55,999 bases of DNA. It comes from Croceivirga sp. (GTDB lineage: Bacteria > Bacteroidota > Bacteroidia > Flavobacteriales > Flavobacteriaceae). The stretch is taken from positions 1 through 55,999 of the forward strand of contig JANQQQ010000032.1 in assembly GCA_028284935.1 (NCBI GenBank), given 5' to 3'. The notes under the pieces were generated by a model. It was not told the origin of the DNA. It saw only the letters and a program-made list of their open reading frames with translations, and did no database searches. This document shows positions 13,619 through 33,642 of this stretch, piece by piece. Each line of letters opens with the position of its first letter. Position 1 is the stretch's first letter. The position numbers were made by a program, and so were the translations under genes.

Positions 13619-13706
13619 AGTTTTTTGTTTTTTACAAAAATGCACAAATAACCGCAGAAACATCCCTTGGCCTTGGTCGTAAGCCTACACCTGACAAATG
13701 GGAAAA

Positions 13707-17431: not shown

Positions 17432-18529
17432 TTATTGAATGGCCACTTTGGCCCCGTTGAACAATTTTCCCTCTGAGGAAACAATATAGGTCTCCCCTAT
17501 TGCCAATCCCGAAAGAACCTCTACCTCATCCCCAATGACATTGCCTAAACGCAACCATCGTAAAATGGCCGTATTGTTGGGCCCAATGGTGTAAATACCG
17601 TTCAACTGTCCCTTTTCCACCAAGACTGTTTTGGGGATACTGATTGTAGCACTTTCTTGTCCAGCACTACTCGCTGCAAAAGAAACGGTGGCGAACATAC
17701 CAGAACGCACTTCTTCAGGAGGATTGTCTAAAAGTACTTTCGCAAAGTATTGTCCTCCCGAGAATTGGGCCGATGAACTCAACTCCGTTAATTTTCCCTT
17801 TATCGATGCATCCAAAGCCTTGACAAGAACATTGGCTTCTGTGCCAACCTTCAATTGATTGATCTGGTTCTCTGCCACTCTTGCCTCAACTTCAAAAGCA
17901 CCAGGAGCTTCAATACTGACCAGTGGCTTTCCAGGATTTGCCATGGTGCCCTCATCCACGTGCGTATTGATGATCATGCCACTGAACGGTGCGCGAATGT
18001 TGGCGTATGCAAATTGGGCATCTACCTCGTTCATCATCTGCTGTGCCGCTTCGTATCGAGCTTTTGCCATTTCAAAACGGGAGGTCATATCGTCCAACTC
18101 TTTTTGAGAGGCACTATTTTGATTAAACAGATTTACGAACCTTTGATAGTCTTTCTCAGCATTCTGAAAACCAGCCTTAGCTTCCAATATTGACGCTTCA
18201 GCCTGTGCCTTTTTAGCTTGCAAATCCACATTTTTAATTGCCACCAAAAGTTGTCCTTTAGTCACTTTTTGACCGACCTTAACTGGAATGCGTTGCACAA
18301 AACCCATCATTCGGGTACTGAGTGTCGCACTCTTTGTTGCAGTAATCTGTCCGCTTCCCGCATTAAAATAACCGCTGTCCAAGGTTTCGACTTTTGCCAC
18401 TTTAACGGCAATGATTTCTTGTTCTGCTTGGTCGGGAGATGTATCACTGCCACACCCCACTAACATAGCTGTTGCAAGTCCAAAAGGCAGCGTAGTTTTT
18501 ATAATCTCTAATACCTTATTCATGGTCAT
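17432..18529 (-). CDS. RND efflux periplasmic adaptor lipoprotein (HlyD/MFP family)
   Basis: 365 residues. The N-terminal lipobox (AMLVGCGS) anchors it to the inner membrane. Then come the split lipoyl half-motifs (GFVQRIPVKVGQKVTKGQLL and FAYANIRAPFSGMIINTHVD), a coiled-coil hairpin between them, a beta-barrel and a membrane-proximal domain. It bridges pump and TolC. Its ATG overlaps the TolC stop by 1 base, and the RND gene follows 9 bases later. An ATG at 18523 is an alternative start. Confidence 0.93.
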   Translation of the reverse strand: MTMNKVLEIIKTTLPFGLATAMLVGCGSDTSPDQAEQEIIAVKVAKVETLDSGYFNAGSGQITATKSATLSTRMMGFVQRIPVKVGQKVTKGQLLVAIKNVDLQAKKAQAEASILEAKAGFQNAEKDYQRFVNLFNQNSASQKELDDMTSRFEMAKARYEAAQQMMNEVDAQFAYANIRAPFSGMIINTHVDEGTMANPGKPLVSIEAPGAFEVEARVAENQINQLKVGTEANVLVKALDASIKGKLTELSSSAQFSGGQYFAKVLLDNPPEEVRSGMFATVSFAASSAGQESATISIPKTVLVEKGQLNGIYTIGPNNTAILRWLRLGNVIGDEVEVLSGLAIGETYIVSSEGKLFNGAKVAIQ

Positions 18530-19842
18530 TAATTGTCTTTGGTTAAAAAAATATGGTACGCCATTGCGTAATTGAATTCATAAACAGTTTGATAATAGGC
18601 CAATTCTTGTTTTGCGTATTGCACCTCAGCCATTAAGAGATCCGTTGTTTTCTCCAACCCTTCCTTAAACCTGTTGGTGCGGATTTGAAACGATTCCTTG
18701 GATTGCTGCAAGGCCAATTCAGAAGAGGCCAACCTATTTTCAGCATCGGTGAGCATCCGTTTGGTGCGTTCCAATTCCATTTTACTTTTTGAGAGGTATT
18801 CTTCAAGTTGAAGCTTGGCTTTGTCCGCATTGGCCTTCCCTTTTTTGGTTTGTGCAAAACGTTGCCCTCCCTTAAAAACATCCCAGCTTAAACTGGCACC
18901 AATGGTATAACCGCTAGCACCCGTTTGAAACACCTCTTGATCGTACAATTCATAAGAACCAAAAGCATTCAGCCGTGGTAAAAAGGTCATTCTTTCTGCC
19001 CTATAATTGGCCTTATAGGCTTCTGCGGCCTTTTGCATGGCCCTAACGTCTGCACGGTTTTTCAAATCATTGTTTTGTGATACGTCCCTTTTTGGGAGGG
19101 GCAAAAGCTCTTTTTCTGGTTCAAAAACCACCGTTTGGTCTTCGCTGATTAAAAATGCCAAGTAGGCAGAAGCATTTTTAATATTGCTCTTTGCGTCCAA
19201 TAATTGATCGTTGGTCTCCGATGCCCTCACCTGCGCCTGCAACCAATCGGCTTTTTGGACAAGCCCTTCCGTATAATAGTCCTTGGTCAACTTTTCATTG
19301 GCCATGGCCGACTTATTTGCCTTTTCAAGAACTTCCACGACCTTGTGTGCCAATTGCAATTGCATGTAGGCATTTTGTGCTTCAAAGCCAATATGTTCCT
19401 TTGTACGTTGAAACTGAAACTCCTTGGCCTTAAAAGTAGATTTGGCCGCCTTTCGCTTATAAAACCCATCCATATTGACCAATGGCTGTTGCACGGATAC
19501 GATGGTGGCGAAGTTTTCAATATTATCGGGATCATTCAATAAGGGCGGATTAAAATCCGTTTGCGTCAAAATCTCCTGGTTCAATTTTGAGCCAAAGGAC
19601 ATCAACGGATTTGTGGTGGTAAAACCTGTATGTGAAACCGATATATTGGGCAAAAACACCGAACGGCTCATCCCGTAATCAGCTTCGGCCGCAGTCGTCT
19701 CCAACTTTGAGATTTTAATGTTTGTATTTGCCTCCTGTACCTTGGCCAATACCTCATCCAGCGAAATGGATTGCTGCTCTTGGGCAACCAAAACCTGAAC
19801 TAAATGAAGGCCAAAAAAGGCAATCGTCATCACTCTCTTCAT
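18529..19842 (-). CDS. TolC-family outer-membrane efflux protein
   Basis: 437 residues from the ATG at 19842. A signal peptide (MKRVMTIAFFGLHLVQVLVA) is followed by two OEP repeats rich in long coiled-coil helices and a conserved GASLSWDVFKGGQR strand segment. It forms the outer-membrane duct of the pump. First gene of the long operon tolC-adaptor-RND-PII-DUF2892-YeeE-YeeE and possibly the receiver. The start lies 22 bases after a TAGCTTTG promoter box with the regulatory palindrome upstream. Confidence 0.94.
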   Translation of the reverse strand: MKRVMTIAFFGLHLVQVLVAQEQQSISLDEVLAKVQEANTNIKISKLETTAAEADYGMSRSVFLPNISVSHTGFTTTNPLMSFGSKLNQEILTQTDFNPPLLNDPDNIENFATIVSVQQPLVNMDGFYKRKAAKSTFKAKEFQFQRTKEHIGFEAQNAYMQLQLAHKVVEVLEKANKSAMANEKLTKDYYTEGLVQKADWLQAQVRASETNDQLLDAKSNIKNASAYLAFLISEDQTVVFEPEKELLPLPKRDVSQNNDLKNRADVRAMQKAAEAYKANYRAERMTFLPRLNAFGSYELYDQEVFQTGASGYTIGASLSWDVFKGGQRFAQTKKGKANADKAKLQLEEYLSKSKMELERTKRMLTDAENRLASSELALQQSKESFQIRTNRFKEGLEKTTDLLMAEVQYAKQELAYYQTVYEFNYAMAYHIFLTKDN

Positions 19843-19863
19843 GATCAAATGAATATTTTAAGG

Positions 19864-19907
19864 CAAAGCTAACGGGACGGTAATAGCTGTGCAGTAACTT
19901 GGGTTAC
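19864..19907 (-). promoter_or_regulatory. Crp/Fnr-type promoter of the TolC-RND-YeeE operon
   Basis: Palindrome GTAAC-TTGG-GTTAC (19894-19907), then 22 bases, then the -7 box TAGCTTTG (19871-19864, minus strand), then the tolC ATG at 19842. No -33 TTG is needed if the bound regulator contacts RNA polymerase. The same spacing occurs at four other promoters in the window. Confidence 0.75.
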
Positions 19908-20062
19908 ATTGCCCAAAAGGCCTTGTTCATCTCAATAAGGGCAACCTTATTTGGTGTCATAGGTGAAACAAGGGATGTCATATGACGAAGTCCGCAGGGG
20001 CAATTAAAAAGGCAGGAAAAATACCGCTAGAAGGTATTCCTGTAATCAGGTTTATTTAAAAC

Positions 20063-20179
20063 CGTCATTTCGAGTTTTTTCGCCACGAAAGAGTATCGAG
20101 AAAAGGGTTTTGCCCATAAAATTCTTGTTCTCGATACAATTTTTATTTGCCATCGCACAAAAAATCACTCGAACTGACG
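20063..20179. repeat. Palindromic intergenic repeat (REP-like) element
   Basis: Nested inverted repeats: outer arms CGTCATTTCGAGT (20063-20075) and ACTCGAACTGACG (20167-20179), matching at 12 of 13 pairs; inner arms GTATCGAGAA (20093-20102) and TTCTCGATAC (20128-20137), perfect. Sequences of this CGTCA-TTCGAG...CTCGA-CTGACG kind are scattered between genes in many Flavobacteriaceae. It lies between the small-protein genes and tolC. Only one copy is in the window. Confidence 0.65.
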
Positions 20180-20319
20180 AATCGCATTCAAAATGCACAA
20201 CGGGTTATTCAAAGGAGAATAGTATGGGGATACTTTAGGAGCGGTAACTTCAAAACATAGAAAATGCAGTTCAACTGCAAAGACAATTGAACCACATCAA
20301 AACTGGTAAAACCTGGTAA

Positions 20320-20451
20320 TTAGGATTTCTTACCGCTATTCATTAAGGCCATTACTGCCGCAATCAAGATTATGACCACAAGCGCGAAAACCCCAATCAT
20401 CAAAATACCGTTGTCCCAAGCAACAAGAACTATATTTTGCAACGTATTCAT
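20320..20451 (-). CDS. 43-residue single-helix membrane protein
   Basis: ATG at 20451, stop at 20320. MNTLQNIVLVAWDNGILMIG is followed by a strongly hydrophobic Val/Ile/Ala helix and a short polar tail ending GKKS. It is the last of a run of small genes, 17 bases after the 39-residue one. No family recognised. The clean membrane-helix profile and tight spacing argue that it is real. It may be a small subunit or regulator of a membrane complex of the sulfur regulon. Confidence 0.6.
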   Translation of the reverse strand: MNTLQNIVLVAWDNGILMIGVFALVVIILIAAVMALMNSGKKS

Positions 20452-20468
20452 CTACGATTTTTTGAATA

Positions 20469-20588
20469 TTACTTCTCTGGAAGGGCAAACTCCGCTAGAA
20501 CCACCAAAGCCACGATCATGATTCCCGAACCAATAGCAGCCAACGAATAATCCAACGTCATTAACGGTATTTGTACTAGCGCATCCAT
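20469..20588 (-). CDS. 39-residue single-helix membrane protein
   Basis: ATG at 20588, stop at 20469. A polar start (MDALVQIPLMTLDYS) leads into one hydrophobic helix (IGSGIMIVALVVLAEFAL) and ends in PEK. It lies 56 bases after the DUF2892 gene and 17 before the 43-residue gene. Not recognised. Size resembles the small accessory subunits of respiratory complexes, but no such complex is encoded next to it, so no function is claimed. Confidence 0.6.
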   Translation of the reverse strand: MDALVQIPLMTLDYSLAAIGSGIMIVALVVLAEFALPEK

Positions 20589-20644
20589 TTGCTCAAACTT
20601 TCCCCTAAACTAAAGCATTCGTTATCCAAAAAGCATGATATTTC

Positions 20645-20851
20645 TCAGCTTTTTGCCTTACAGGTATTTAAACCCACCAGGGCGTACAATGGACAAAAAC
20701 TTATAAAGGATGTCAGGACAAAAATACCTGACAGGCCCAGTAATACGTAGGCCAAAGTACCTTGTACCATACCGGCAAAATACAACACCGCTACCACTAC
20801 GGCAACCATTAAACGGATAATGCGGTCCATACCGCCCATATTTTTTTTCAT
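20645..20851 (-). CDS. DUF2892 small membrane protein
   Basis: 68 residues. MKKNMGGMDRIIRLMVAVVV is the typical DUF2892 start. Two hydrophobic helices follow, then SFCPLYALVGLNTCKAKS, the Cys-containing tail usual for this family (YgaP-like membrane domain). It is the best-conserved member of the small-gene operon read leftwards from the shared divergent promoter. The two Cys could carry persulfide sulfur; that is a guess. Confidence 0.88.
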   Translation of the reverse strand: MKKNMGGMDRIIRLMVAVVVAVLYFAGMVQGTLAYVLLGLSGIFVLTSFISFCPLYALVGLNTCKAKS

Positions 20852-20862
20852 TTTTGTAAAAT

Positions 20863-20958
20863 TTAGTTCATCTTTTCAATAACCAAAACCAGCACTATTA
20901 CCAAGCCTTTACAGATAAAACAGACCAATAGCAGTTTTTGCCATTTCCTCAATTTCAT
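20863..20958 (-). CDS. Possible 31-residue membrane peptide
   Basis: MKLRKWQKLLLVCFICKGL leads a positively charged end into one hydrophobic segment ending EKMN. It sits 11 bases before the DUF2892 gene. The ATG at 20958 is only 3 bases from the -7 box TACATTTG (20969-20962), so the mRNA would be leaderless or nearly so, or a TTG at 20952 is used. Treat as tentative. Confidence 0.35.
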   Translation of the reverse strand: MKLRKWQKLLLVCFICKGLVIVLVLVIEKMN

Positions 20959-20961
20959 GAT

Positions 20962-21035
20962 CAAATGTATATAATGCCCTTGATGACTTTGGTAACCCTG
21001 GTTACACAACCATCCCATTTATTATCTTAGATTTA
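20962..21035. promoter_or_regulatory. Bidirectional Crp/Fnr-type promoter: small-protein operon and sulfite dehydrogenase
   Basis: One palindrome GTAAC-CCTG-GTTAC (20992-21005) has a -7 box on each side at the same 22-base distance: TACATTTG on the minus strand (20969-20962) and TAGATTTA on the plus strand (21028-21035). A single dimer could thus activate both directions. The sulfite dehydrogenase ATG is at 21052. Confidence 0.75.
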
Positions 21036-21051
21036 GAAAGACGACCAAAAC

Positions 21052-22272
21052 ATGAACCGAAGGGACTTTTCAAAGCAGCTTTCATTGGCCGGGATGACCG
21101 GACTATTGGGGACTTCCATTGTTTTTTCCAAAAACATGCCCAAGGGCTATTGGCCCATTGCACTTCAAGACCCAGACCCTTTTTCCCTATTTGATAAGGA
21201 CAAGGAAATGACCGTTTTGAATGATCGGCCCTGGAACATTGAGGCCAAGGCCCATCTCTTAAACGATAAAGTCACTCCCAACAAGTACATGTTTGTTCGC
21301 AACAATGGCAGAATTCCTGACACTATTGATGTGAATTCATGGACATTGACCATAGATGGTGAAGCTATACGTAAATCCAAAACATATTCCCTACAGGAAC
21401 TCAAGACAAAATTTAAGCCATATACCTATCAACTTACCTTGGAATGCGGAGGAAATGGTAGAAGTGAATTTGACCCCCCTGCCAAGGGCAATCAATGGAC
21501 GGTTGGGGCCATTTCCTGTGCTCAATGGACAGGAGTGCGCCTTCGTGATGTGCTTGAAGATGTGGGTATTACTGACGGAGCAGTCTATATTGGGTACCAT
21601 GCCGCCGATACCCATTTGAGCGGCGACCCAACCAAAGAACCTATTTCCAGAGGAGTTCCCATAAAGAAGGCCCTATTGGACGAAACACTATTGGCCTATA
21701 AAATGAACGGGCAAGCTATTCCCTTGGCCCATGGTTTCCCATTACGTTTGGTTTGTGGAGGTTGGCCCGCATCGGCCTCAGGAAAATGGATAAATGGAAT
21801 TAGTGTCCGCAATAGAGTTCATGATGGTGCCAAAATGGGTGGTAGCTCGTACCGGGTGCCCTGTGAAACGGTCGCCCCCGGTAGCCAAATAAAAGAAACA
21901 GCCATGTGCATTATTGAATCCATGCCGGTGAAGTCTTTAATCACCTATCCAAGGAGTGGTGCATTGATTAAGGAAGGCCAGTCCCTTTCCATAAATGGCC
22001 ATGCATGGGCGGGAGAACTGGAGGTGACCAAAATGGAGTACTCAATCGATTTTGGAAGCACATGGAAGGACTGCACGTTGGAAAAACCTGTAAACCGGTT
22101 GGCATGGCAACACTTTATGGCCAACGTTCAGTTTCCTAAAAAGGGCTATTATGAGGTTTGGGCAAGGGCCACGGATAAAGAAGGAAAAAGCCAACCCATG
22201 GTTTTACCAGGATGGAATCCAAAGGGATATTTAAACAATGCGTGCCACCGCATTGCTGTAAAAGTTGTGTGA
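21052..22272 (+). CDS. Molybdenum-dependent sulfite dehydrogenase catalytic subunit (SorA/SoxC-like)
   Basis: 406 residues of the sulfite-oxidase fold. The N-terminus (NRRDFSKQLSLAGM) is a twin-arginine signal, so the folded Mo-cofactor enzyme is exported. The molybdenum-ligand Cys is Cys132 in LTLECGGNGRSEF. GWPASASGKW and the C-terminal dimerisation domain are also seen. The family oxidises sulfite to sulfate in the periplasm and passes electrons to a cytochrome c. The following gene encodes one, as in SorAB. Regulated by the shared palindrome at 20992. Confidence 0.92.
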   Translation: MNRRDFSKQLSLAGMTGLLGTSIVFSKNMPKGYWPIALQDPDPFSLFDKDKEMTVLNDRPWNIEAKAHLLNDKVTPNKYMFVRNNGRIPDTIDVNSWTLTIDGEAIRKSKTYSLQELKTKFKPYTYQLTLECGGNGRSEFDPPAKGNQWTVGAISCAQWTGVRLRDVLEDVGITDGAVYIGYHAADTHLSGDPTKEPISRGVPIKKALLDETLLAYKMNGQAIPLAHGFPLRLVCGGWPASASGKWINGISVRNRVHDGAKMGGSSYRVPCETVAPGSQIKETAMCIIESMPVKSLITYPRSGALIKEGQSLSINGHAWAGELEVTKMEYSIDFGSTWKDCTLEKPVNRLAWQHFMANVQFPKKGYYEVWARATDKEGKSQPMVLPGWNPKGYLNNACHRIAVKVV

Positions 22273-22273
22273 G

Positions 22274-22732
22274 GTGAAAGAAAATTTCGAAGGGCAAATC
22301 AAATCATTGGGCAGGTTACTGGTTACTTTCGCCTTCTTGTTAATACTCTTTATAGGGGGAATGCTCTATATAAAAAACAATCCCAGCATCCTGATTCCTT
22401 CTGAGGAGTATGAAGTCCTACCCGCTAATGAAACCACGCTGGTGGAATTGGATGAAGCAACTATTGCACAATCCGGTTTTGTCAATGCGCAAGGGGTCTC
22501 CCAGGTTATTCAAAACTGTACCCAATGCCATTCCGCCAAATTGGTAACCCAGAACCGGATGAGTAAGGAAGGTTGGGAATCGACGATTACTTGGATGCAG
22601 GAAACACAAAATCTTTGGGATTTAGGGGATAAAGAGGAAATGATCGTGGCCTATTTGGCCAAAAACTATGGCCCAGTCAGTAAAGGAAGAAGGGAAAACC
22701 TGACCAATGTTGAGTGGTATGAATTAGAGTAG
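22274..22732 (+). CDS. Monohaem cytochrome c subunit of sulfite dehydrogenase (SorB-like)
   Basis: About 152 residues from a GTG at 22274 (a TTG at 22265 is the alternative). One N-terminal membrane helix (LLVTFAFLLILFIGGMLYI) anchors a periplasmic domain with a single haem site CTQCH. The haem-containing C-terminal part resembles the SorB electron acceptor, in which a Met downstream (here within RMSKEGW) could be the second ligand. It directly follows the catalytic subunit gene and precedes the hydroxylase by 2 bases. Confidence 0.88.
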   Translation: MKENFEGQIKSLGRLLVTFAFLLILFIGGMLYIKNNPSILIPSEEYEVLPANETTLVELDEATIAQSGFVNAQGVSQVIQNCTQCHSAKLVTQNRMSKEGWESTITWMQETQNLWDLGDKEEMIVAYLAKNYGPVSKGRRENLTNVEWYELE

Positions 22733-22734
22733 CA

Positions 22735-23607
22735 ATGGAAATCTATTGGCATGCATTTTTAAACGGATTCAACGGAACTATCAATTACACCTGGAAATCC
22801 ATACTTTTTGAAGTACCCTGGTACAAAAACTATTTTTGGGGGTTAATCGTCATTTCATTACTGGTTTGGCTTTTAGAAATTTTGTTTCCATGGCGAAAAA
22901 ACCAATCCATTTTTAGAAAGGACTTTTGGTTGGACGGATTTTATATGTTCTTCAATTTTTTTGTATTTGCCATAGTTATCCAAGGCATATACAATATGCT
23001 TGAAATCGGTTTTGGTCAAATAGGGATTTCCGCCCAAAGCCTGGCATTACTACCCATATCCCGTTGGTCCACGTGGTCGCAGCTCTTGATCTTTTTTGTT
23101 TTGCTCGATTTTGTACAGTGGCTCACCCATATCGCCCTACATAAATTTTCGCTCCTATGGCGCTTTCACCAGGTGCACCACAGCGTAAAGGAGATGGGGT
23201 TTGCAGCCCACTTGCGCTATCATTGGATGGAAAACATTCTCTATAAACCGTTAAAGACCTTTGGGGTAATGCTATTGGGTGGTTTTGAGCCCGAACAGGC
23301 CTACATTGTCCACTTTGTTGCTATTGCCATTGGTCATTTAAATCACGCCAATATCAAACTGACTTATGGCCCTTTCAAGTATATTTTTAATAATCCAGTA
23401 ATGCATTTGTACCATCATTCCTATGTACTTCCAAAAGGAAGATATGGGGTCAATTTTGGAATAAGCCTTAGCCTTTGGGATTATCTTTTCGGTACAAACT
23501 ATATTCCGGAAGCTGGTGGGAAAATTCCACTGGGCTATCCGGGTGATCAAAAAATGCCCAAAGGGTTTTGGGGACAGTTGGTTCATGGTTTTTTAAGGAA
23601 GAAATAG
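22735..23607 (+). CDS. Sterol desaturase/fatty acid hydroxylase superfamily membrane enzyme
   Basis: 290 residues with four to five membrane segments and the di-iron histidine clusters HIALH, HQVHH and HLYHH, plus HLNHAN. These coordinate two irons in oxygen-dependent hydroxylases and desaturases of lipids. Its substrate is unknown. Close packing after the cytochrome gene puts it in the sulfite-dehydrogenase operon, although a biochemical link is not evident. Confidence 0.9.
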   Translation: MEIYWHAFLNGFNGTINYTWKSILFEVPWYKNYFWGLIVISLLVWLLEILFPWRKNQSIFRKDFWLDGFYMFFNFFVFAIVIQGIYNMLEIGFGQIGISAQSLALLPISRWSTWSQLLIFFVLLDFVQWLTHIALHKFSLLWRFHQVHHSVKEMGFAAHLRYHWMENILYKPLKTFGVMLLGGFEPEQAYIVHFVAIAIGHLNHANIKLTYGPFKYIFNNPVMHLYHHSYVLPKGRYGVNFGISLSLWDYLFGTNYIPEAGGKIPLGYPGDQKMPKGFWGQLVHGFLRKK

Positions 23608-23628
23608 CTGAACTTTTGCGCATTGTCC

Positions 23629-24717
23629 ATGACCAATACCAAAAATGAAAAAATGACCCTAGAAGATTTAGGATATACCAAAGCATTAGTGCGTTACCGA
23701 ACTAAACATGACTTAGATGCGTTAGGAGTAGGACGGGTAATATCGGAGCATAAGGAAAGGTATGTTATAAAAAATGCCAATGGGGAATATGATGGGGAAA
23801 TCATTGGAAATTTACGCTATTCCGCTAGTAGTAGGTCGGACTTTCCTGCTGTTGGCGATTGGGTCGCCATTTCTGAATATGATGACAACAAAGTGCTTAT
23901 CCACGCCATACTTCCAAGAAAAACCAGTATTGAACGCCAAGCCGTCGGAAAACAAGGAGAGAAGCAAATCATTGCCACAAATATTGACTATGGTTTGATT
24001 TTACAAGCGGTCAATCGGGATTTTAACATCAATCGATTGGAGCGGTACTTGACCCTTTGCCTCTCGGCCAAGGTAAAACCGATTATCGTTCTTATTAAAA
24101 TCGATTTGATAGATGATGCTCAGATAAGAGAGCTGGTCGATTCACTTCAAGAAAGAATAAAGAACGTCCCTATAGTTCCTCTAAGCAATGCCTCCCAAAA
24201 AGGCATTGAAACCTTAAATGCACATCTGCGAAAAGGAAAAACCTATTGTTTGTTGGGATCTTCGGGGGTGGGAAAATCTACGCTCATCAATAATTTGATG
24301 GGTATGGAAGTCATGGCGACCAAGGAAATCAGTGAACGCATTGATCGAGGAAAACATACCACCACACATCGGGAGCTGATCATAACCGAGAATGGAATTT
24401 TAATCGATAACCCTAGAATGCGGGAAGTTGGGATTACCGACGCCCCAGATGGATTGGATATGACTTTTGAGGCTATAACCGAATTAGCTGTACAATGCAA
24501 ATTCTCGGATTGTACGCATACCAATGAAATGGATTGTGCGGTTTTGGAAGCACTTGACAAGGGTGAAATTAATACCTCTTCGTACGATAATTATTTAAGA
24601 ATGGAGCGGGAAAAGCAGCACTTTGAATTGACCATAGCCGAAAAACGAAAAAAAGACAAGGATTTTGGGAAAATGGTCAAGGAGTTCAAAAACCGAAAAA
24701 ACCGAAACAGGTATTAA
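23629..24717 (+). CDS. rsgA: RsgA-family circularly permuted GTPase
   Basis: 362 residues: N-terminal OB-fold, then a permuted GTPase domain with G1 (GSSGVGKST) after the G4-like element (IVLIKIDLID), then a C-terminal zinc knuckle (CKFSDCTHTNEMDC). RsgA helps mature the 30S ribosomal subunit. Two departures from the usual form are seen: G4 reads IKID instead of NKxD, and G3 reads DNPRMRE instead of DTPGMRE. It may therefore be a second paralogue rather than the housekeeping copy. ATG at 23629 chosen over a TTG at 23623. Confidence 0.85.
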   Translation: MTNTKNEKMTLEDLGYTKALVRYRTKHDLDALGVGRVISEHKERYVIKNANGEYDGEIIGNLRYSASSRSDFPAVGDWVAISEYDDNKVLIHAILPRKTSIERQAVGKQGEKQIIATNIDYGLILQAVNRDFNINRLERYLTLCLSAKVKPIIVLIKIDLIDDAQIRELVDSLQERIKNVPIVPLSNASQKGIETLNAHLRKGKTYCLLGSSGVGKSTLINNLMGMEVMATKEISERIDRGKHTTTHRELIITENGILIDNPRMREVGITDAPDGLDMTFEAITELAVQCKFSDCTHTNEMDCAVLEALDKGEINTSSYDNYLRMEREKQHFELTIAEKRKKDKDFGKMVKEFKNRKNRNRY

Positions 24718-24798
24718 GTGCCGTATTTAATTAAGGGCAATCCTTGTTAACAAGCAAAAAAGCTTTCTTTTAAAGGTGTCCCCAAATCGGCTTCCGCA

Positions 24799-25089
24799 CT
24801 ATTGGGTAAGCAAGCCTATCAAGTCGTTTGCCTGCACCACCCCTGATTGCCGCCATACCAATTCCCCATTTTTAAAAACCATTAAAGTAGGAACCCCGCG
24901 CACTTGATACTGTTGTGCCAAAATCTGGTTTTTGTCTACATCTATCTTAATGATTTTAGCGGCATCACCCACTTGCGACTTTACCTGTTCCAAAATGGGC
25001 ATCATGATTTTACACGGGCCGCACCACGTGGCATAAAAATCGACAAGAACGGGTTTATCCCCCGCTATAATTTCCTTAAAACTTGACAT
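24799..25089 (-). CDS. Thioredoxin-family protein
   Basis: 96 residues from the ATG at 25089, with active site [10 protein letters not shown] and the cis-Pro in [10 protein letters not shown]: a complete, apparently cytosolic thioredoxin. It overlaps the dihaem lipoprotein gene by 14 bases and is the last gene of the rhodanese operon. In that setting it could reduce rhodanese-bound persulfides and release sulfide; that is inference. Confidence 0.93.
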
Positions 25090-26086
25090 TTTCCTGTTTA
25101 TCAAAAGTTATGCTCCAAATACCCCTAACTTCATTGATACGGTATCCTGTAGCCTTGTCATTGGGGTATTTTTCCAATAGGAGATTTTGAACATCCAAAG
25201 ATACATCGGTTTTGGTATCGCCATGGCATTTTAAACACATGGCATTGGTGATGATGGGAGCATAAAATTGCACTTCCTCCCCCAAATCAGCTACCATGGG
25301 CAGCATCTCCGTTTTTTGTTCCAACGCCTGTTTGAAGGTTTGTATATGCGCTTCCTCAATGGAATTGGCCTTATTCTTTGGATTTCTGGGCCTGTCACTC
25401 ACCCGTTTTATTTTGGCGCTAAAGGCAACCGACATGCTATCCGTCAAGGGATAGGCCCTTTCATGACAGAACGTAAGTGCTGCCGGCACCCCCTTTTTTT
25501 GAATGGTCCCCATAAGATTGGCTCCCAATACTTGTTTGGTGCCCAAGGCATAGGACATAGCAATTTCCGCATAGGTAGGTTTTTCAGCATCGGTCAACAA
25601 TAACGGTTGTTCCGTATTCGTGTATGGCGGAAAACCGTGTGACGACCAATGTTCCTCAAACCATTGCGGTTCTTCCACCTGATAATCATACATATAGGCA
25701 GCAATCTTTTCAATTTCCTCTTTATTATAAAGTGCCATAGGCATTGGTCCAAATCGCTTGACAGCACCTTTTAACTTGGTACGGTTCTGTTTTGGATTTA
25801 AAACAAAGGCTATTATGGAGTCTATAAAGGCCTCCCTGGTTGTAAACTCTTGTTTATAGTGGGCTTTCACGGCAATCATGGGCGGTCCTACCCTTTCTGC
25901 ATTTTCAGGGGCGGTTGGGCTATGGCAGAGATAGCACTTTTGCTCCATCAATTTCTTTCCCTCAAAAGCATTGGCCACTCTAAGGCTATCGGTATTCATT
26001 TCAACTTTCTCACCTTCTGCTTTATGCTGCTTGCAAGAAGTTGAGAAGAACACCATAATAATCATGATCAGTGACCACCTTTCCAT
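25076..26086 (-). CDS. Dihaem c-type lipoprotein with DUF3365 domain
   Basis: 336 residues from the ATG at 26086. The signal ends in a lipobox (VFFSTSCKQ). Residues ~45-140 are a class I cytochrome c with CYLCH. The C-terminal half is a DUF3365 (Tll0287-like) domain with a second haem site CLKCH. A longer in-frame start exists, but its extra residues only shadow the rhodanese gene. Likely an envelope electron carrier or redox sensor. Its place between rhodanese and thioredoxin, under the palindrome promoter, suggests it takes electrons from sulfur oxidation. Confidence 0.85.
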
Positions 26087-26102
26087 AGCTATTCGTTTTG
26101 TG

Positions 26103-26447
26103 TTATCGTAACCAAGCACCATAGCCACCAGCCAAATCAACGATTTCCTCAAAACCCGCGTCAACCAATTTATTCGCCGCTTTTTGACTACGATTGCCCG
26201 ATTGACAATACAGATAGACGGTTTTGTTTTTATCGAGCGATTCCATCCCGCTTTTGAATTGGCCTGAACTAAAAAAGTCAAAGTTTTTGGCCCCTTTGAT
26301 GTGTCCTGCCTTAAATTCCTTGGCCGTTCTAACATCTACCAATTGTACTTTTCCTTTTTTGATGGCCTGGCCAAAATCGACCTTGTTCAGCACTGTAACC
26401 TTATCTGACTCTGGAGCTCTTCCGAACAGCATACTCAATATTGACAT
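26103..26447 (-). CDS. Single-domain rhodanese
   Basis: 114 residues. VDVRTAKEFKAGHIKGAKN and the active-site loop YCQSGNRSQK, with the persulfide-forming Cys, are complete. No signal peptide, so cytosolic. First gene of the rhodanese-dihaem lipoprotein-thioredoxin operon, 20 bases after a TAGTTTTG box. It moves sulfane sulfur between thiols, thiosulfate or cyanide. The basic residues of the active loop favour thiol persulfide chemistry, but the acceptor is not known. Confidence 0.93.
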   Translation of the reverse strand: MSILSMLFGRAPESDKVTVLNKVDFGQAIKKGKVQLVDVRTAKEFKAGHIKGAKNFDFFSSGQFKSGMESLDKNKTVYLYCQSGNRSQKAANKLVDAGFEEIVDLAGGYGAWLR

Positions 26448-26467
26448 ATCAATTTGTTTTAGTTATA

Positions 26468-26511
26468 CAAAACTAGTAATGGTATACTGGGCCTACAGTA
26501 ACTAGGGTTAC
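26468..26511 (-). promoter_or_regulatory. Crp/Fnr-type promoter of the rhodanese-thioredoxin operon
   Basis: Palindrome GTAAC-TAGG-GTTAC (26498-26511), 22 bases, then the -7 box TAGTTTTG (26475-26468) and the rhodanese ATG at 26447. It lies between the end of the methyltransferase gene and this operon, so the latter has its own start. Confidence 0.75.
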
Positions 26512-26546
26512 ACAATGAACGAGTTGCAAGAAAACTATTGCCTACC

Positions 26547-27128
26547 CTATTTACTAAGTCGAAAAAAGAGTTCGTTACCCTTTCGGGGAGGAATCGAGTT
26601 ATAACAGCTTTCCATCAACTCAATGGTAAAATAGTGCTCAAAATATTGTAGGTACTCTGTTTTTGAGCCGCCAAATGGTGGTCCACTGTCCAATGGAAAA
26701 TCAAACAATACCCCTACCAGTTTTCCCTTGGGTTTCAACAGCTCGTACATTTTTTGAGCGTAGGCCTTGCGCAGGGACGGGTGTAAAGCACAGAAAAACG
26801 TTTGTTCCAAAATAAGGCCAAACTGACCCTTCAGTTCAAAAAAATCCTGTACCAAAAACTGATGTTCAGGGAAAGTGGAAAATCGTTTCAAAAAATTAAC
26901 TTTGGCTGTCTGGGCCACATCAACCACATAGGTATTTGAGAATCCATTTTGGAAGAGATATTCTGCCTCGTAGGCATTGCCTCCACCTGGAATCAATATC
27001 TTGATTGATTGGTCTTCGAGCTGTTCAATATAGGACTTTAAGGGAGTAGAGGGATAACCAATGTCCCACCCCAGTCGGTTCTCCTCATAGCGGGAATTCC
27101 AATATTTGGCGTCAAGAGTATCCCCCAT
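26547..27128 (-). CDS. TPMT-family S-adenosylmethionine methyltransferase
   Basis: 193 residues. YWNSRYEENRLGWDIGYPS is the family N-terminus, ILIPGGGNAYEAEYL the SAM-binding loop, and TFFCALHPSLRKAYAQKM the conserved core of thiopurine-methyltransferase-like enzymes. Bacterial members methylate thiols, sulfide, selenium or tellurium compounds. As the last gene of the persulfide dioxygenase operon it may methylate hydrogen sulfide or a thiol as detoxification; that is inference. Overlaps the rhodanese lipoprotein gene by 1 base. Confidence 0.9.
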   Translation of the reverse strand: MGDTLDAKYWNSRYEENRLGWDIGYPSTPLKSYIEQLEDQSIKILIPGGGNAYEAEYLFQNGFSNTYVVDVAQTAKVNFLKRFSTFPEHQFLVQDFFELKGQFGLILEQTFFCALHPSLRKAYAQKMYELLKPKGKLVGVLFDFPLDSGPPFGGSKTEYLQYFEHYFTIELMESCYNSIPPRKGNELFFRLSK

Positions 27129-27499
27129 CAGTCAATCACCCAATCATTATATCCTGCTGAGTAATCATAGATTCTGGTAAACCCTTGGTCTTTGAGCAAT
27201 TGTGCGGCACGATTGCTTCGACCGCCCATTTTACAATACAGATAGACGGGTTCGTCTTTGTTCAAGGAATCAATCTGCTCCAAAAAAGTCTCATTATTGA
27301 TCACATTGAAATTTATGGCGCCCTCAATATGACCGGATTCATATTCCTCTTGGGTCCTTACATCCACCAATTGCACGTTTTTGCCAACAACCTCATCTAG
27401 CAGAAAATCCTTGTCGATAATGGTAATTTCCGATGAAGTACTCTTCTTGCAAGAGAAGGAGAAAAGCAGCAGAACAAGACAAAAGGTAGAGTGCTTCAT
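27128..27499 (-). CDS. Rhodanese-domain lipoprotein
   Basis: 123 residues from the ATG at 27499. Signal peptide with lipobox (LLFSFSCKK), then a rhodanese domain with VDVRTQEEYESGHIEGAIN and active loop YCKMGGRSNR. It is therefore the envelope counterpart of the cytosolic rhodanese at 26103. The gene starts 2 bases after the HMA gene ends. Periplasmic rhodaneses handle thiosulfate or polysulfide before uptake. Confidence 0.92.
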   Translation of the reverse strand: MKHSTFCLVLLLFSFSCKKSTSSEITIIDKDFLLDEVVGKNVQLVDVRTQEEYESGHIEGAINFNVINNETFLEQIDSLNKDEPVYLYCKMGGRSNRAAQLLKDQGFTRIYDYSAGYNDWVID

Positions 27500-27501
27500 C
27501 G

Positions 27502-27771
27502 TTATTTGGATAAACGGCCAACGGCACAACTAACAAAGGATTTTGCTTGGGTGAACAGGTCATTTTGGGTATCCATTTCGGGATAACCCAATGCTGCCAG
27601 CTTTTGTTTTACATTCAAAAGTACATTTTCTTGGCCATGGTTGATGATTACGGTGTTTTCAGATTCGTTGACCTCAACACCATCAATACCTTCCAGTTCC
27701 CCTACTTTATTCTTAATGGTAGTCGCACAGCCCCCACATTTTAAATTTTGGATATGGATTGTTGTTTGCAT
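27502..27771 (-). CDS. Heavy-metal-associated (HMA) domain protein with extra C-terminal Cys
   Basis: 89 residues. MQTTIHIQNLKCGGCATTIK carries the CxxC of the copper-chaperone HMA fold (here CGGC). After the ferredoxin-like domain a tail ends SFVSCAVGRLSK with a third Cys. It lies between the dioxygenase and rhodanese genes with 2-base gaps. It could bind copper or another soft metal, or the CGGC could hold sulfane sulfur; the neighbours make the second worth testing. Confidence 0.88.
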   Translation of the reverse strand: MQTTIHIQNLKCGGCATTIKNKVGELEGIDGVEVNESENTVIINHGQENVLLNVKQKLAALGYPEMDTQNDLFTQAKSFVSCAVGRLSK

Positions 27772-27773
27772 CT

Positions 27774-29186
27774 TTAGGATTTTTGGGTAGTTGGACAAAC
27801 AAAATCCGTCGTCGGAATTCCTGACTTTTTAATGGCAGCAAATCCACCGGCCACATCGATCAAATTATGGATTCCCCGGCTTTTTAATATGGACGCGGCT
27901 ATCATACTACGGTATCCTCCGGCGCAATGCACGTAAAAAGTATCATTGGAAGGAAACTCGGCTAAATGATCGTTCAGAAAGTCCAAAGGGGTCAAATGGG
28001 CATCTTGAAGATGTTCGGCATCATATTCTGTTTGTTTTCTCACATCAAAAACAGGTGCTTTGACTTCCACGGCCGCCTTAAAGGTATCCGCATCGATACT
28101 GGTTACGCTGTCCGTTTCCTTACCGGCCATTTTCCAGGCTTCCAGACCGCCATCCAAATATCCAATGGTACCATCAAAACCAACCCGAGACAAACGGGTA
28201 ACGGTTTCTTCTTCCTTACCTTCGGGGGCAATCAACAGAATGGGCTGCTTTACATCGGCAATCAAGGCACCTACCCATGGTGCAAAACTGCCATTTAAGC
28301 CAATAAAAATGGAACGCGGCACATGGGCTTGGGCAAAATCGTTCTGATGTCGCACATCCAAAACCACGGCTCCCGTTTCATTGGCGGCTGCTTCAAAGGC
28401 GTCAGGGGAAAGTGCTACAGTTCCCCGCTCCAATACCAAGCCAATATCGTCGTAACCTTCTTTGTTCATTTTAACGTTCAAGGGAAAATACTGTGGTGGA
28501 GGTAAAAGCCCATCCGTCACTTCCTTGATAAATTCTTCACGGGTCATGTCTGCACGCAGGGCATAGTTCATTTTCTTTTGGTTGCCCAAAACATCCACCG
28601 TTTCCTTCATCATATTCTTACCACAAGCCGAGCCTGCCCCATGGGCAGGATACACAATGACATCATCAGCCAAAGGCATAATTTTATTTCGTAAGCTATC
28701 GAAAAGGATGCCTGCCAATTGCTCTTGCGTCATATCAGCTGCCTTTTGGGCGAGGTCAGGTCGACCAACATCTCCCAGAAATAAAGTATCCCCACTGAAA
28801 ATAGCATGGTCTTTTCCGTTTTCATCCCGAAGGAGATAGGTGGTACTCTCCATGGTATGTCCAGGGGTATGGAGCACAACAAAGGTGAGCTTACCCATTT
28901 GGAATTCCTGACCATCCTTCGCAATGATGGCATCAAAAGAAGGATTCGCGTTGGGGCCGTAAATAATTGGTGCTCCCGATTCTTTTGACAAGGTAACATG
29001 ACCACTCACAAAATCGGCATGAAAGTGTGTCTCAAAAATGTATTTGATTTTGGCATGATCACGTTTGGCCCGGTCCAAGTAGGGCTGTACTTCTCGAAGT
29101 GGATCAATAATGGCCACCTCACCTTCACTTTCAATATAATATGCCCCTTGGGCCAAACATCCGGTATAAATCTGCTCTATGTTCAT
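27774..29186 (-). CDS. Persulfide dioxygenase fused to two rhodanese domains (CstB-like)
   Basis: 470 residues. Residues 1-~215 are a metallo-beta-lactamase-fold non-haem iron dioxygenase with ETHFHADFVSGH (His54, His56), HTPGH (His110) and SGDTLFLGDVGRPDL (Asp133), the ETHE1/persulfide dioxygenase signature. Two rhodanese domains follow. The first has lost its Cys (loop LLIAPEGKEEE near 320). The second is intact (HCAGGYRS, Cys421). The enzyme class oxidises persulfide to sulfite, and the rhodanese can turn that into thiosulfate. First gene of a four-gene operon, 18 bases after its -7 box. Confidence 0.93.
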   Translation of the reverse strand: MNIEQIYTGCLAQGAYYIESEGEVAIIDPLREVQPYLDRAKRDHAKIKYIFETHFHADFVSGHVTLSKESGAPIIYGPNANPSFDAIIAKDGQEFQMGKLTFVVLHTPGHTMESTTYLLRDENGKDHAIFSGDTLFLGDVGRPDLAQKAADMTQEQLAGILFDSLRNKIMPLADDVIVYPAHGAGSACGKNMMKETVDVLGNQKKMNYALRADMTREEFIKEVTDGLLPPPQYFPLNVKMNKEGYDDIGLVLERGTVALSPDAFEAAANETGAVVLDVRHQNDFAQAHVPRSIFIGLNGSFAPWVGALIADVKQPILLIAPEGKEEETVTRLSRVGFDGTIGYLDGGLEAWKMAGKETDSVTSIDADTFKAAVEVKAPVFDVRKQTEYDAEHLQDAHLTPLDFLNDHLAEFPSNDTFYVHCAGGYRSMIAASILKSRGIHNLIDVAGGFAAIKKSGIPTTDFVCPTTQKS

Positions 29187-29203
29187 TGTACTAAATTATG
29201 GCC

Positions 29204-29247
29204 CAAAATTAGGGGTAACGGAGCAAAGAAAAAGTAACATTGGTCAC
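29204..29247 (-). promoter_or_regulatory. Crp/Fnr-type promoter of the persulfide dioxygenase operon
   Basis: Near-palindrome GTAAC-ATTG-GTCAC (29234-29247, one mismatch), 22 bases, then TAATTTTG (29211-29204) and the ATG at 29186. Same layout as the other sites of the block. Confidence 0.7.
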
Positions 29248-31173: not shown

Positions 31174-32895
31174 CTATTGCCTATGTTGCAACGATACCTT
31201 TTCCTGCAAGGCGGTGCGTTCTACTTTTTTGAGACTATCAGCGTATGCTTCAGCCGTTCTAACATAAATATTCCCTTGTCCGATGATGTCCACTAATCCA
31301 CTTTTCTTAAGCATATCGCGAATAGGTCCAATGGCGCCTGCCAACTTAAAGATGATGCCCCTTTCATTCAATTGTAAAACCAAAGTTTGTAGTTGTTTTG
31401 CCGCGGTATCGTCCAAATAATTTACAGGTTCAGCATTTAGGATAACGTATTTCAATAGCGGTCCCTTTTTCTCCACTTCTTTCATTAAAGTCCGTGAAAA
31501 GTAGTGTACGTTGGCAAAGAACAATTGGGCATCGAATCGAAGCATAAGAATTTCATCATGAACCTCTACGTCTTCACCGAAACGATTCACATTTTTAAAG
31601 TACTCCATCCCCTTTATCTTCCCCAAAACTGCAAAATGGGGCTTGGAGATGCGGTATACCAAAAACACCAATGAAAACAGCACCCCAAAAATAATCCCTT
31701 GGGAAATCCCTATCAAGAGTGTTGTCAGAAAGGTCACTACCAGTAGCACAAATTCATCCTTTTGCTGTTTAAAAAGCAGTTTGGGATATTTTACATCGAT
31801 AAGGCCATATACAGCCACTAAAATAATGGCCCCAAGAACCGATTTGGGTAAATAGTAAAAAAATGGAGTGAGAAACAATAAGGTCAGTCCAACCACACCA
31901 GCACTAATAATGCTGGCAAGGCCCGTTTTGGCACCCTCATCAACATTAACTGCAGTCCTGGACAACCCAGCGTTCACTGGAAACGACTGAAAAAAAGATC
32001 CTGCAATATTGGAAAATCCCAAAGCCCTTAGTTCCTGATTCGGGCGGGTATGTCTCTTATTGGATTTTTCTTCCATAGCCTTTGCTATGGTCATGGCCTC
32101 TGCAAAAGCGATAAAGGCCAAGGCGAGTGCAGTTGGGAAAACAACCACCAGTTGTGATGTATCAATTTTTGGAAGTACAAAGCCAGGCAACCCTTGGGGC
32201 ACCGTTCCTAAAATATGAACATCGGTTTCATTGACCATAAACAAATGGATACCAATAATGGATAAAATCACCACAAACATCGCCGCCGGAAGTTTACGAT
32301 GCAGCTTTTTTATTCCTAAAATCACAACTATAGCTCCAATTCCAATAGAAAGGTCATAAAAATTGGTTCGTTCCAAATTTTGCACCACCGCTGTGAATGT
32401 TTCAAGTGTGCCTTGACTATCCAATTCCAATCCGAATAGATGTTTTAATTGGCTTACCGCAATGACCAAAGCAGCTGCCGAAGTAAACCCGCTTACAACA
32501 GGCCGCGAAAGAAAATTGGCCAAGAATCCCATCCGAAAAAAGCCCATGACCAACTGTATGGTACCGACCAGCAATGCCAAAAACAGCGCCATGGAAATAT
32601 AGTTTTCAATGGTGGCCAGCTTCATGGCCGCAAGACTTGATGCTACAATCAAAGAATCCAGAGCCACGGGACCCACGGCCAGTTTACGGCTGGAACCTGT
32701 AAAGGCGTAAAGCAAATTTGGTACTAGGGCAGCGTACAGACCGTACACCGGTGGCAGTCCTGCTATAAGGGCATAGGCCATTCCCTGTGGGATGAGCATT
32801 ACCCCTACCGTTATTCCTGCAGAAATATCTCCGGATAGATAGGACTTTTTGTAGTTAGGCAACCACTGAACTATAGGAAAATAACGCTTTATCAC
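31174..32895 (-). CDS. SulP-family anion transporter with STAS domain
   Basis: About 573 residues from the GTG at 32895, which gives the typical SulP start MIKRYFPIVQWLPNYKKSYL; a TTG at 32937 adds 14 untypical residues. Includes GVMLIPQGMAYALIAGLPPVYGLYAALVP, about 11-12 helices (SLC26 fold) and a C-terminal cytosolic STAS domain (YVILNAEPVNYLDDTAAKQL). The family carries sulfate, bicarbonate or other anions. Downstream of the Crp/Fnr gene and close to a sulfite-oxidising system, sulfate is the best guess. Confidence 0.92.
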   Translation of the reverse strand: MIKRYFPIVQWLPNYKKSYLSGDISAGITVGVMLIPQGMAYALIAGLPPVYGLYAALVPNLLYAFTGSSRKLAVGPVALDSLIVASSLAAMKLATIENYISMALFLALLVGTIQLVMGFFRMGFLANFLSRPVVSGFTSAAALVIAVSQLKHLFGLELDSQGTLETFTAVVQNLERTNFYDLSIGIGAIVVILGIKKLHRKLPAAMFVVILSIIGIHLFMVNETDVHILGTVPQGLPGFVLPKIDTSQLVVVFPTALALAFIAFAEAMTIAKAMEEKSNKRHTRPNQELRALGFSNIAGSFFQSFPVNAGLSRTAVNVDEGAKTGLASIISAGVVGLTLLFLTPFFYYLPKSVLGAIILVAVYGLIDVKYPKLLFKQQKDEFVLLVVTFLTTLLIGISQGIIFGVLFSLVFLVYRISKPHFAVLGKIKGMEYFKNVNRFGEDVEVHDEILMLRFDAQLFFANVHYFSRTLMKEVEKKGPLLKYVILNAEPVNYLDDTAAKQLQTLVLQLNERGIIFKLAGAIGPIRDMLKKSGLVDIIGQGNIYVRTAEAYADSLKKVERTALQEKVSLQHRQ

Positions 32896-32948
32896 AAATG
32901 CAAAGGTAAACAGCTTTTGTTCTTTGCCCAGTAACAACCATTACATAA

Positions 32949-33581
32949 TCAAAGATTTACCAGTTCAATGGAATTCCTATGAAGTTTTATCTTACCCATG
33001 ACCTCCAATCTTTTTAGCAGGCGTGACATCACCACACGGGAGCTGTGCAAATCATAAGCAATTTCCTGATGGGTACTTTTAACCGTATTGGATTGATTGA
33101 TACGTGCCTTTTCCCTCAAATAGTCCACCAATCGTTGATCCATATTCTTAAATGCGATACTGTCTATAGTGAACAACAATTCATTAAGCCTACTATGATA
33201 GCTCTCAAACACAAAGTTCCTCCAAGACCGGTACTTGGAAATCCACTCCTCCATCTTCCGAATAGGGACCAAAACAAAGGAAACATCTGTTTCTGCGATA
33301 GCACGTATTTCACTCTTTGTGTCCCCCAAACAGCAGGCCATGGTCATGCTACACGTATCCCCATGTTCAAGATAGTACAGCAAGAGTTCATCTCCATCAT
33401 CATCTTCCCTAAGGATCTTTATCACCCCGGAAACCAAAAGTGGCATGCCTTTGATATATTCACCAATTTCCATGATCTTTTGTCCCTCCTTAAAGTCCAA
33501 AAGAACCCCGGTTTCCTCAATTTCCTTTAACAGGGGAGCTTCAAAAGTAGAACCAAAGCTCGATTTCAAATCCATTTCCAT
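32949..33581 (-). CDS. Crp/Fnr-family transcription regulator with a Cys cluster
   Basis: 210 residues from the ATG at 33581 (an upstream TTG at 33599 is possible). An N-terminal cyclic-nucleotide-binding-fold domain is followed by the long dimer helix and a C-terminal winged helix (THQEIAYDLHSSRVVMSRLL, residues ~170-190). HGDTCSMTMACCLGD places Cys77, Cys83 and Cys84 together in the sensor domain where a ligand loop would be. These could sense persulfide, redox state or hold a cluster. It is the likely activator of the five palindrome promoters; that is inference. Co-transcribed with the SulP gene. Confidence 0.9.
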   Translation of the reverse strand: MEMDLKSSFGSTFEAPLLKEIEETGVLLDFKEGQKIMEIGEYIKGMPLLVSGVIKILREDDDGDELLLYYLEHGDTCSMTMACCLGDTKSEIRAIAETDVSFVLVPIRKMEEWISKYRSWRNFVFESYHSRLNELLFTIDSIAFKNMDQRLVDYLREKARINQSNTVKSTHQEIAYDLHSSRVVMSRLLKRLEVMGKIKLHRNSIELVNL

Positions 33582-33642
33582 ACCCCTAAAATATTTCAAT
33601 TACTAGTATATTTAACGAATTAGTCCAATTAATTCCCTAAGA

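Follow-up and report, generated by a model that had tools for sequence, protein, structure and literature searches.

A probable sulfur regulon under a dedicated Crp/Fnr-type regulator in Croceivirga sp. and related flavobacteria

Sulfur Genes and a Recurrent Operator–Promoter Element

A stretch of 55,999 nucleotides from the genome of Croceivirga sp. (Flavobacteriaceae; contig JANQQQ010000032.1 of assembly GCA_028284935.1), hereafter the window, contains a block of sulfur-related genes whose promoters share the palindrome GTAAC-N4-GTTAC, and, close by, the gene of a Crp/Fnr-type protein, P0001 (Table 1). The functions of the window genes were assigned by family only (Pfam and NCBIfam). Judging from the comparisons below, this marine-type flavobacterium appears to turn on its genes for the oxidation and detoxification of sulfide and related sulfur compounds through a single Crp/Fnr-family regulator dedicated to them, in an arrangement that is common to many relatives.

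Exact copies of the palindrome lie at 19894, 20992, and 26498, and copies with one mismatch at 29234 and, as a fifth match, at 32931. The coordinates given in the original prediction all proved correct on rescanning, and the 22-base spacing that it had claimed for five promoters was found at each of them, where GTRAC-N4-GTTAC stands exactly 22 bases ahead of a TAnnTTT(G/A) box; the boxes of two of these promoters flank the two sides of one site. Its statement that no such site exists outside the block was wrong, since a sixth site lies 3.7 kb outside, between the Crp/Fnr gene and a SulP permease gene. With at most one mismatch, the palindrome has 5 matches in the window against a mean of 0.84 in shuffled sequences, and none of 100 shuffles gave 5. 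For boxes to occur at 5 of 8 orientations at one fixed spacing, given 99 TAnnTTT(G/A) boxes on both strands, the chance is approximately 3e-14, a figure that is optimistic in treating the spacing of 22 as preset.

Table 1. Putative operator–promoter elements and genes of the sulfur block and its surroundings.
Feature	Position	Strand	Assignment and remarks
Operator GTAACCCAAGTTAC + N22 + TAGCTTTG	19864..19907	-	Putative promoter of the TolC–membrane fusion protein–RND–YeeE operon; also ahead of relatives' TolC genes
Operator + N22 + TACATTTG	20962..21005	-	Putative promoter of small membrane proteins, including YgaP-like TM protein
20962 operator read in the other direction + N22 + TAGATTTA	20992..21035	+	Putative promoter of the sulfite dehydrogenase operon
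Operator + N22 + TAGTTTTG	26468..26511	-	Putative promoter of rhodanese–cytochrome–thioredoxin
Operator GTGACCAATGTTAC (one mismatch) + N22 + TAATTTTG	29204..29247	-	Putative promoter of persulfide dioxygenase–rhodanese
Operator GTAATGGTTGTTAC + N22 + TACCTTTG	32901..32944	-	Ahead of SulP permease, directly after the regulator gene
Crp/Fnr regulator P0001, 216 aa as called	32949..33599	-	Recognition helix R188-V189..S192-R193
YeeE/YedE-like sulfur transport, other half of split pair (DUF6691)	12644..13057	-	Family match
YeeE/TsuA-like sulfur transport, one half of split pair	13061..13663	-	PF04143
RND transporter	14219..17422	-	PF00873
Membrane fusion protein, HlyD type	17432..18529	-	Family match
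TolC-type outer membrane efflux protein	18529..19848	-	PF02321
43-aa hydrophobic small protein	20320..20451	-	Open reading frame only
39-aa hydrophobic small protein	20469..20588	-	Open reading frame only
68-aa small membrane protein	20645..20851	-	Clusters with YgaP-like_TM protein
Molybdopterin sulfite dehydrogenase, SorA-like	21052..22272	+	NCBIfam SorA, 233.8 bits, under the cut-off of 600
155-aa protein, possible cytochrome partner	22265..22732	+	Weak haem-binding domain match, below cut-off
FA_hydroxylase superfamily membrane protein	22735..23607	+	Relatives' genes carry their own motif copy in 13 loci
Thioredoxin	24799..25104	-	PF00085
Cytochrome c + Tll0287-like protein	25076..26335	-	Called start overlaps rhodanese; real start probably later
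Rhodanese, first gene behind the 26468 promoter	26103..26447	-	PF00581
TPMT-type methyltransferase	26547..27128	-	Family match
Rhodanese	27128..27529	-	Family match
Heavy-metal-associated (HMA) domain protein	27502..27798	-	Family match
Metallo-beta-lactamase + rhodanese fusion, probable persulfide dioxygenase	27774..29186	-	Family match
SulP permease with STAS	31174..32937	-	Family match

The SorA-like gene starts 16 nucleotides past its box and stands behind the motif in 8 loci (the window counted, as also for the 12 loci with SulP), while the cluster downstream of the small-membrane-protein promoter is found in 14 loci, for which Pfam was run on a representative from a relative. The called TTG start of SulP falls within the operator, and a GTG at 32895 suits the promoter and the orthologues better. 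Adjoining the sulfur block, positions 29395-30228 encode an Ada-like fusion of an AraC-type helix-turn-helix and an O6-methylguanine DNA methyltransferase.

Occurrence in the Genome and Conservation in Relatives

The whole genome (4.23 Mb, 38 contigs) was scanned with each half-site joined to the box. GTTAC-N22-TANNTTTR occurs at 9 places, 6 of them in the window (20 in the backwards control), and GTAAC-N31-TANNTTTR also at 9, with 4 in the window (16 in the control). The matches outside the window, three and five, respectively, were set aside, the former being without a left half-site and the latter without a right one. Among these matches, the complete element of both half-sites, N22, and TAnnTTTR is confined to the window, an outcome in favor of the original prediction, sites mismatched in both halves not having been searched; at the four exact palindromes elsewhere in the genome, a TAnnTTT(G/A) box at 22 bases is missing on both sides. 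A second metallo-beta-lactamase–rhodanese gene of the genome, on contig C35 (locus L022, 5742-7163), adjoins a run of universal-stress-protein-looking genes and a 349-aa apparent response-regulator/Crp-like fusion, these names being given partly by eye.

The pattern GTRACN4GTTAC-N(8 to 38)-TANNTTTG, which allows 31 spacings, was run on 60 relatives and gave 85 matches in 37 genomes; the predicted spacing of exactly 22 is conserved in 59 of these, and the rest have 21 (7 matches), 23 (6), or another value (13). A phylum sample of 296 genomes, which shares 4 genomes with the relatives, gave 110 matches, with a spacing of 22 in 64 of the 92 within the window's class and in none of the 18 outside it. 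The 22 bases are probably a general class II geometry in this class.

Eighty named flavobacterial loci, the best 80 of 541, were retrieved via the regulator, and the results from them show linkage rather than genome-wide frequency. Their 1.51 Mb contain 246 copies of GTAAC-N4-GTTAC, against an average of about 1.5 for 59 permuted half-sites (2.9 when counted by strand, highest 16), and TAnnTTTG boxes stand at a spacing of 22 in 126 cases versus 14 at any other spacing between 5 and 45. When the words were relaxed slightly and spacings of 21 to 23 were allowed, the motif was present in 79 of the 80 loci. A chance origin of the sites was rejected on the window shuffles, the permuted half-sites, and the spacing statistics.

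Gene Content of the Regulon

In total, 252 motifs were analyzed, the window counted, of which 247 have an open reading frame (ORF) behind them; the downstream gene was taken as the longest ORF starting near the box, a rule that makes some labels those of a second gene, as at the 26468 site of the window, which is labeled by the cytochrome and not the rhodanese. The commonest downstream cluster is the persulfide dioxygenase–rhodanese with 76 motifs, made up of 63 full-length proteins (51 loci), 12 single rhodaneses, and one protein of 304 aa. TauE/SafE (30), DUF983 (27), SQR-like (20, a label from a match under the family cut-off, 223 versus 525 bits), YgaP-like (14), regulator (13), and FA_hydroxylase (13) clusters come next, then SulP (12), peroxiredoxin (11), sulfite dehydrogenase (8), and cytochrome/rhodanese (8); the rarest are TolC and cytochrome bd (4 each), one unknown (3), and four singletons, including one that is DsrE-like. 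Most of the genes that follow the sites are sulfur genes, as the original prediction anticipated, and its overall reading of a sulfur regulon is favored by scan, spacing, and gene content alike.

The motif stands directly ahead of the regulator gene in 13 loci, within 150 bases in 11 of them. Of the 27 loci in which a DUF983 gene follows the motif, 26 have this gene ending no more than about 40 bases from the start of the regulator, so that there the motif heads the regulator's operon. Thirty further loci, one per genome, were retrieved from whole genomes by the motif itself; 25 of them have a spacing of 21 to 23, and in 22 of these 25 the motif precedes the same gene families, in some cases far from any regulator gene, the gene behind the motif belonging to none of these families in the other three (L076, L078, and L084).

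The Crp/Fnr-Type Regulator

P0001 matches PF00027 (34.2 bits) and PF13545 (28.4 bits), both over the cut-off, which places it in the Crp/Fnr superfamily, and scores 44 bits with the CRP equivalog of NCBIfam, PRK11753, against a cut-off of 266. Its TTG start is uncertain, with Met codons lying 18 and 24 bases further in. The predicted structure, which was compared with Foldseek, has a Crp-type fold at modest confidence (mean predicted local distance difference test, pLDDT, 77.5; predicted template modeling score, pTM, 0.57); residues 85-95, which hold two of the three cysteines, fall below a pLDDT of 50, and for this reason no claim is made on cysteine geometry. When P0001 was scanned with PADLOC, the one outcome was a match of marginal strength (E 0.0066).

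The genome contains 15 cNMP (cyclic nucleotide)-domain matches, 13 over the cut-off, among which R-V..SR and the Cys motif are present only in P0001. Two of the genome's Crp/Fnr-type regulators, both without the Cys motif, stand in tandem on contig C16 (L026, 6608-8169), beside a gene that by eye looks like a copper-type P-type ATPase. Every one of the 30 near homologues in the alignment (31 rows, two of them for the window protein) has Val189, as does each of the 80 loci; another alignment, A2, comprised 23 of the 80 loci and P0001, with L103 and L181 left out for a stop in the span.

Homologues of P0001 occur in 49 of the 60 relatives, 47 of them strong, those below 113 bits being left out of the linkage count. 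A strong homologue is present in all 29 relatives with the 22-base motif, and the motif is absent from all 13 relatives without one (p 5e-5, uncorrected for genome size and kinship); 41 of the 59 motifs lie within 25 kb of the regulator gene. P0001 is favored by this linkage, by the sites ahead of the regulator's own operon, and by the co-variation of residue and base described below, and it is the best candidate for the protein acting on the operators.

Operator Recognition by Residue 189

From their spacing, residues 188, 189, and 193 of P0001 would correspond to residues 180, 181, and 185 of CRP. Residue 189 is Val in 48, Glu in 51, and Ala in 1 of 100 distant loci, which were hand-picked from about 140 matches listed. 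GTAA-N6-TTAC and GTGA-N6-TCAC sites number 42 to 5 in the Val loci and 13 to 35 in the Glu loci; by locus, the counts are 27 to 1 for Val and 5 to 20 for Glu, not including loci that tied or were empty (20 of 48 and 26 of 51). In the 60 loci retrieved after the rule had been seen, the same comparison gave 21 to 0 for Val and 2 to 11 for Glu, these loci being hand-picked and their third batch belonging mostly to the window's own family, in which Val is expected. The comparisons support a tracking of the operator by residue 189 in distant homologues, in which Val would go with GTAA and Glu with GTGA, and the pattern fits the rule for CRP residue 181 (PMC1274295).

GTGAC-N4-GTCAC was rejected as the Glu-189 operator, being rare (3 in 230 kb), with none having a box at 21 to 23; the looser GTGA-N6-TCAC was found next and held in the 60 further loci, while no half-site clearly stood out when half-sites were ranked without bias across the Glu-189 loci. 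In the Glu loci, 12 of the 13 TAnnTTTG boxes located 8 to 38 bases past a GTGA site fall at 21 to 23. In the 22 Glu loci retrieved first, YgaP-like, OsmC-like, and DUF202-like ORFs follow the GTGA sites that have a box at 22 or 23, and SQR-like, cytochrome bd-like, and regulator ORFs follow the sites that lack one, all named by eye.

Cysteines and the Possible Signal

C83, C89, and C90 are the only cysteines of P0001 and are invariant in the 80 near loci, where C83 was part of the search pattern. In the distant homologues, C83 is found in 100 of 100 and C89 in 52 of 100; core sulfur genes adjoin 34 of the 52 with C89 and 10 of the 48 without it, counts that are not corrected for kinship. In L191-L290, the homologues that lack C89, many of them with the sequence CIMSFLGG, have retained C83 as well as the recognition-helix Arg residues. 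The C83-C90 loop presumably corresponds to the cAMP phosphate-binding loop of CRP. The conserved cysteines suggest persulfide sensing, with an even chance that the inducer is a persulfide or polysulfide and acts by reacting with C83 and C89/C90.

Proposed Mechanism and Its Alternatives

The six sites are very likely the operators of one dedicated Crp/Fnr activator, P0001, that heads a sulfur regulon. A P0001 dimer would bind GTAAC-N4-GTTAC, the center of which lies 29 bases before the start of the -7 box, at roughly -40, and would recruit RNA polymerase in class II fashion, standing in for a missing -33 element. TTTG at 19 to 22 bases before the box, taken as the -33 distance, occurs in only 5 of 237 distinct motifs, and TG directly after the palindrome in 119 of them, counts that are consistent with an activator that replaces the -33 element. 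The class II geometry with a center near -41, put forward in the original prediction, would fit the Bacteroidota promoter, which has TAnnTTTG at -7 (PMC7366714). The regulon would clear and oxidize sulfide-derived sulfur through persulfide dioxygenase, rhodaneses, thioredoxin, sulfite dehydrogenase, sulfur transporters, and the RND exporter, once the inducer, probably persulfide or polysulfide, had reacted with C83 and C89/C90.

Several observations weigh against this proposal or parts of it. The exact palindrome occurs at 7 places in the genome, 3 in the window, against 36 for the same word backwards, and is not over-represented; the signal is its concentration in the window together with the spacing, not its genome-wide frequency. 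The second metallo-beta-lactamase–rhodanese gene, on C35, has an upstream palindrome with a degenerate -7 box. The 22-base motif is missing from 18 of the 47 relatives that have a strong homologue, and among the genomes of the class in the phylum sample, the motif is present in 30 of 62 genomes with the regulator versus 2 of 11 without it, which is not significant (p 0.10). The palindrome alone does not mean sulfur, as the regulator HcpR2 uses the same word. Genome G050 keeps the operator though its regulator has neither C89 nor C90, and C83 is kept also in homologues mostly without sulfur genes. Regarding residue 189, 46 of the 99 Val/Glu loci tied or were empty; the residue changes 7 times on a tree from which the recognition columns were excluded, and of four independent pairs typically 2 agree, 0 oppose, and 2 show no difference, with significance out of reach at four. 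Finally, while the sites, spacing, conservation, gene content, linkage, and residue–base association are computed, it is from these that we infer binding, activation over repression, and the inducer.

The same operators and activator could answer to another signal, such as haem or redox state, oxygen, sulfite, or thiosulfate, a possible but rather doubtful alternative. PgRsp and HcpR of Porphyromonas gingivalis are haem-binding Crp/Fnr proteins (PMC12040651), the regulon holds sulfite dehydrogenase and cytochromes, G050 dispenses with C89/C90, and the universal C83 extends to the 48 distant homologues without C89, just 10 of which adjoin core sulfur genes; against this, much of the regulon consists of persulfide dioxygenase, rhodanese, SQR-like, and YgaP-like genes, and C89 itself accompanies sulfur genes in the (kinship-uncorrected) proportions given above. 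Repression by P0001 that the inducer releases, as in BigR/SqrR, is unlikely: known persulfide dioxygenase regulons do use the ArsR-type repressor BigR (PMC5823870 and PMC7315123), but a fixed upstream operator near -40 with scarce -33 TTTG is the geometry of an activator, and a repressor site would need no exact phasing.

That another Crp-like protein acts on the sites, the linked regulator being a bystander, is quite improbable. The 15 cNMP-domain matches offer candidates and some motifs lie far from the regulator gene or on contigs without one, but R-V..SR is found in the aligned recognition helix of none of the 14 others, sites precede the regulator's own operon in many loci, and the Val/Glu residue is associated with the operator. 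More remote still is an HcpR2-type regulator of nitrosative stress, to which the sulfur genes would be incidental. This branch of Crp/Fnr has a consensus, GTAACnnnnGTTAC, identical to that of the window operators (PMC1274295), and in the genomes G286 and G294 the motif precedes hcp, an hcp-like gene, or a small gene. Yet HcpR2, which controls hcp, has Pro at the 181 position and no Cys motif, whereas P0001 has Val and the motif; a search of the own genome for PF03063 (hcp) gave no match, and sulfur genes lie downstream in dozens of loci, by which this explanation is largely refuted for the own genome.

G286 and G294, the 2 of the 11 regulator-free genomes that carry the motif, have no P0001 match. 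In G294, the 22-base motif with a TAnnTTTG box lies ahead of hcp (PF03063), and in G286 the gene behind a 22-base motif is a 78-aa ORF and that behind a 23-base motif an hcp-looking ORF. A Crp/Fnr protein of each genome has Arg-Pro in its recognition helix, which is the signature of HcpR2 (PMC1274295), so that one DNA word would serve two regulators. These loci (L291-L293) resemble an HcpR2 system with a 22- or 23-base spacing in genomes without the sulfur regulator.

Comparison with Known Systems

In the BigR regulons of Xylella, Agrobacterium, and Acinetobacter, too, a persulfide or sulfur dioxygenase (Blh; in Acinetobacter PDO2, together with yeeE-yedE) is controlled by a sulfide-, polysulfide-, or persulfide-responsive regulator (PMC5823870 and PMC7315123). 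However, BigR is a repressor of the ArsR family, while here a Crp/Fnr protein would act from class II activator positions on many separate operons. Of the features of BigR/SqrR systems, the persulfide dioxygenase (the enzyme by family only) and sulfur transporters are present; the linked regulator is a Crp/Fnr protein instead of an ArsR dithiol repressor, no ArsR search having been made elsewhere in the genome. FisR of Cupriavidus and Acinetobacter is likewise an activator of a sulfide-oxidation operon (PMC7315123), but it is sigma-54 dependent and has an AAA+ domain, in contrast to the TAnnTTTG promoters and the Crp-type protein found here.

NtcA of cyanobacteria, a Crp-family activator, binds GTAN8TAC near -41.5 (PMC3898017), a pattern that GTAAC-N4-GTTAC fits, and NtcA chains come second by sequence among the solved structures matched to P0001; however, P0001 scores only 41.9 bits with NtcA_cyano of NCBIfam (cut-off 244.95), and NtcA is concerned with nitrogen, not with sulfur genes. 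The best PDB match by both sequence and fold is 3dv8, a Crp/Fnr regulator of Eubacterium rectale, with a Cys at each of the positions corresponding to C83 and C89; it shares 26% identity and has Glu at the 189 position, no C90, and no stated function. The oxygen sensor FNR holds an Fe-S cluster with an N-terminal Cys cluster, which is absent from P0001, its cysteines being C83, C89, and C90 only.

Implications

To our knowledge, the known persulfide regulons are run by regulators of the ArsR, CsoR, or sigma-54 type. Text searches for Crp/Fnr-type sulfide or persulfide regulators and for work on how Bacteroidota regulate sulfur genes, in a collection with few subscription papers, brought up no sulfide regulon of this phylum under Crp/Fnr control. 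We propose a flavobacterial Crp/Fnr persulfide sensor that would carry C-x5-C-C in place of the cAMP-phosphate loop of CRP and directly activate a multi-operon regulon of sulfide oxidation and export, its own gene included, with Val/Glu189 setting GTAAC or GTGA in each lineage; as a whole, this model may as readily fail as hold.

The Val/Glu189 contrast offers a test, by one point mutation, of the residue-181 rule for reading Crp/Fnr operators, and the RND-TolC-YeeE operon, the YgaP-like small membrane proteins, the FA_hydroxylase-type protein, and DUF983 are offered as candidates for the pathway. If the proposal is true, a Crp/Fnr activator would give flavobacteria, which are important in the turnover of marine organic matter, a sulfide response of their own.

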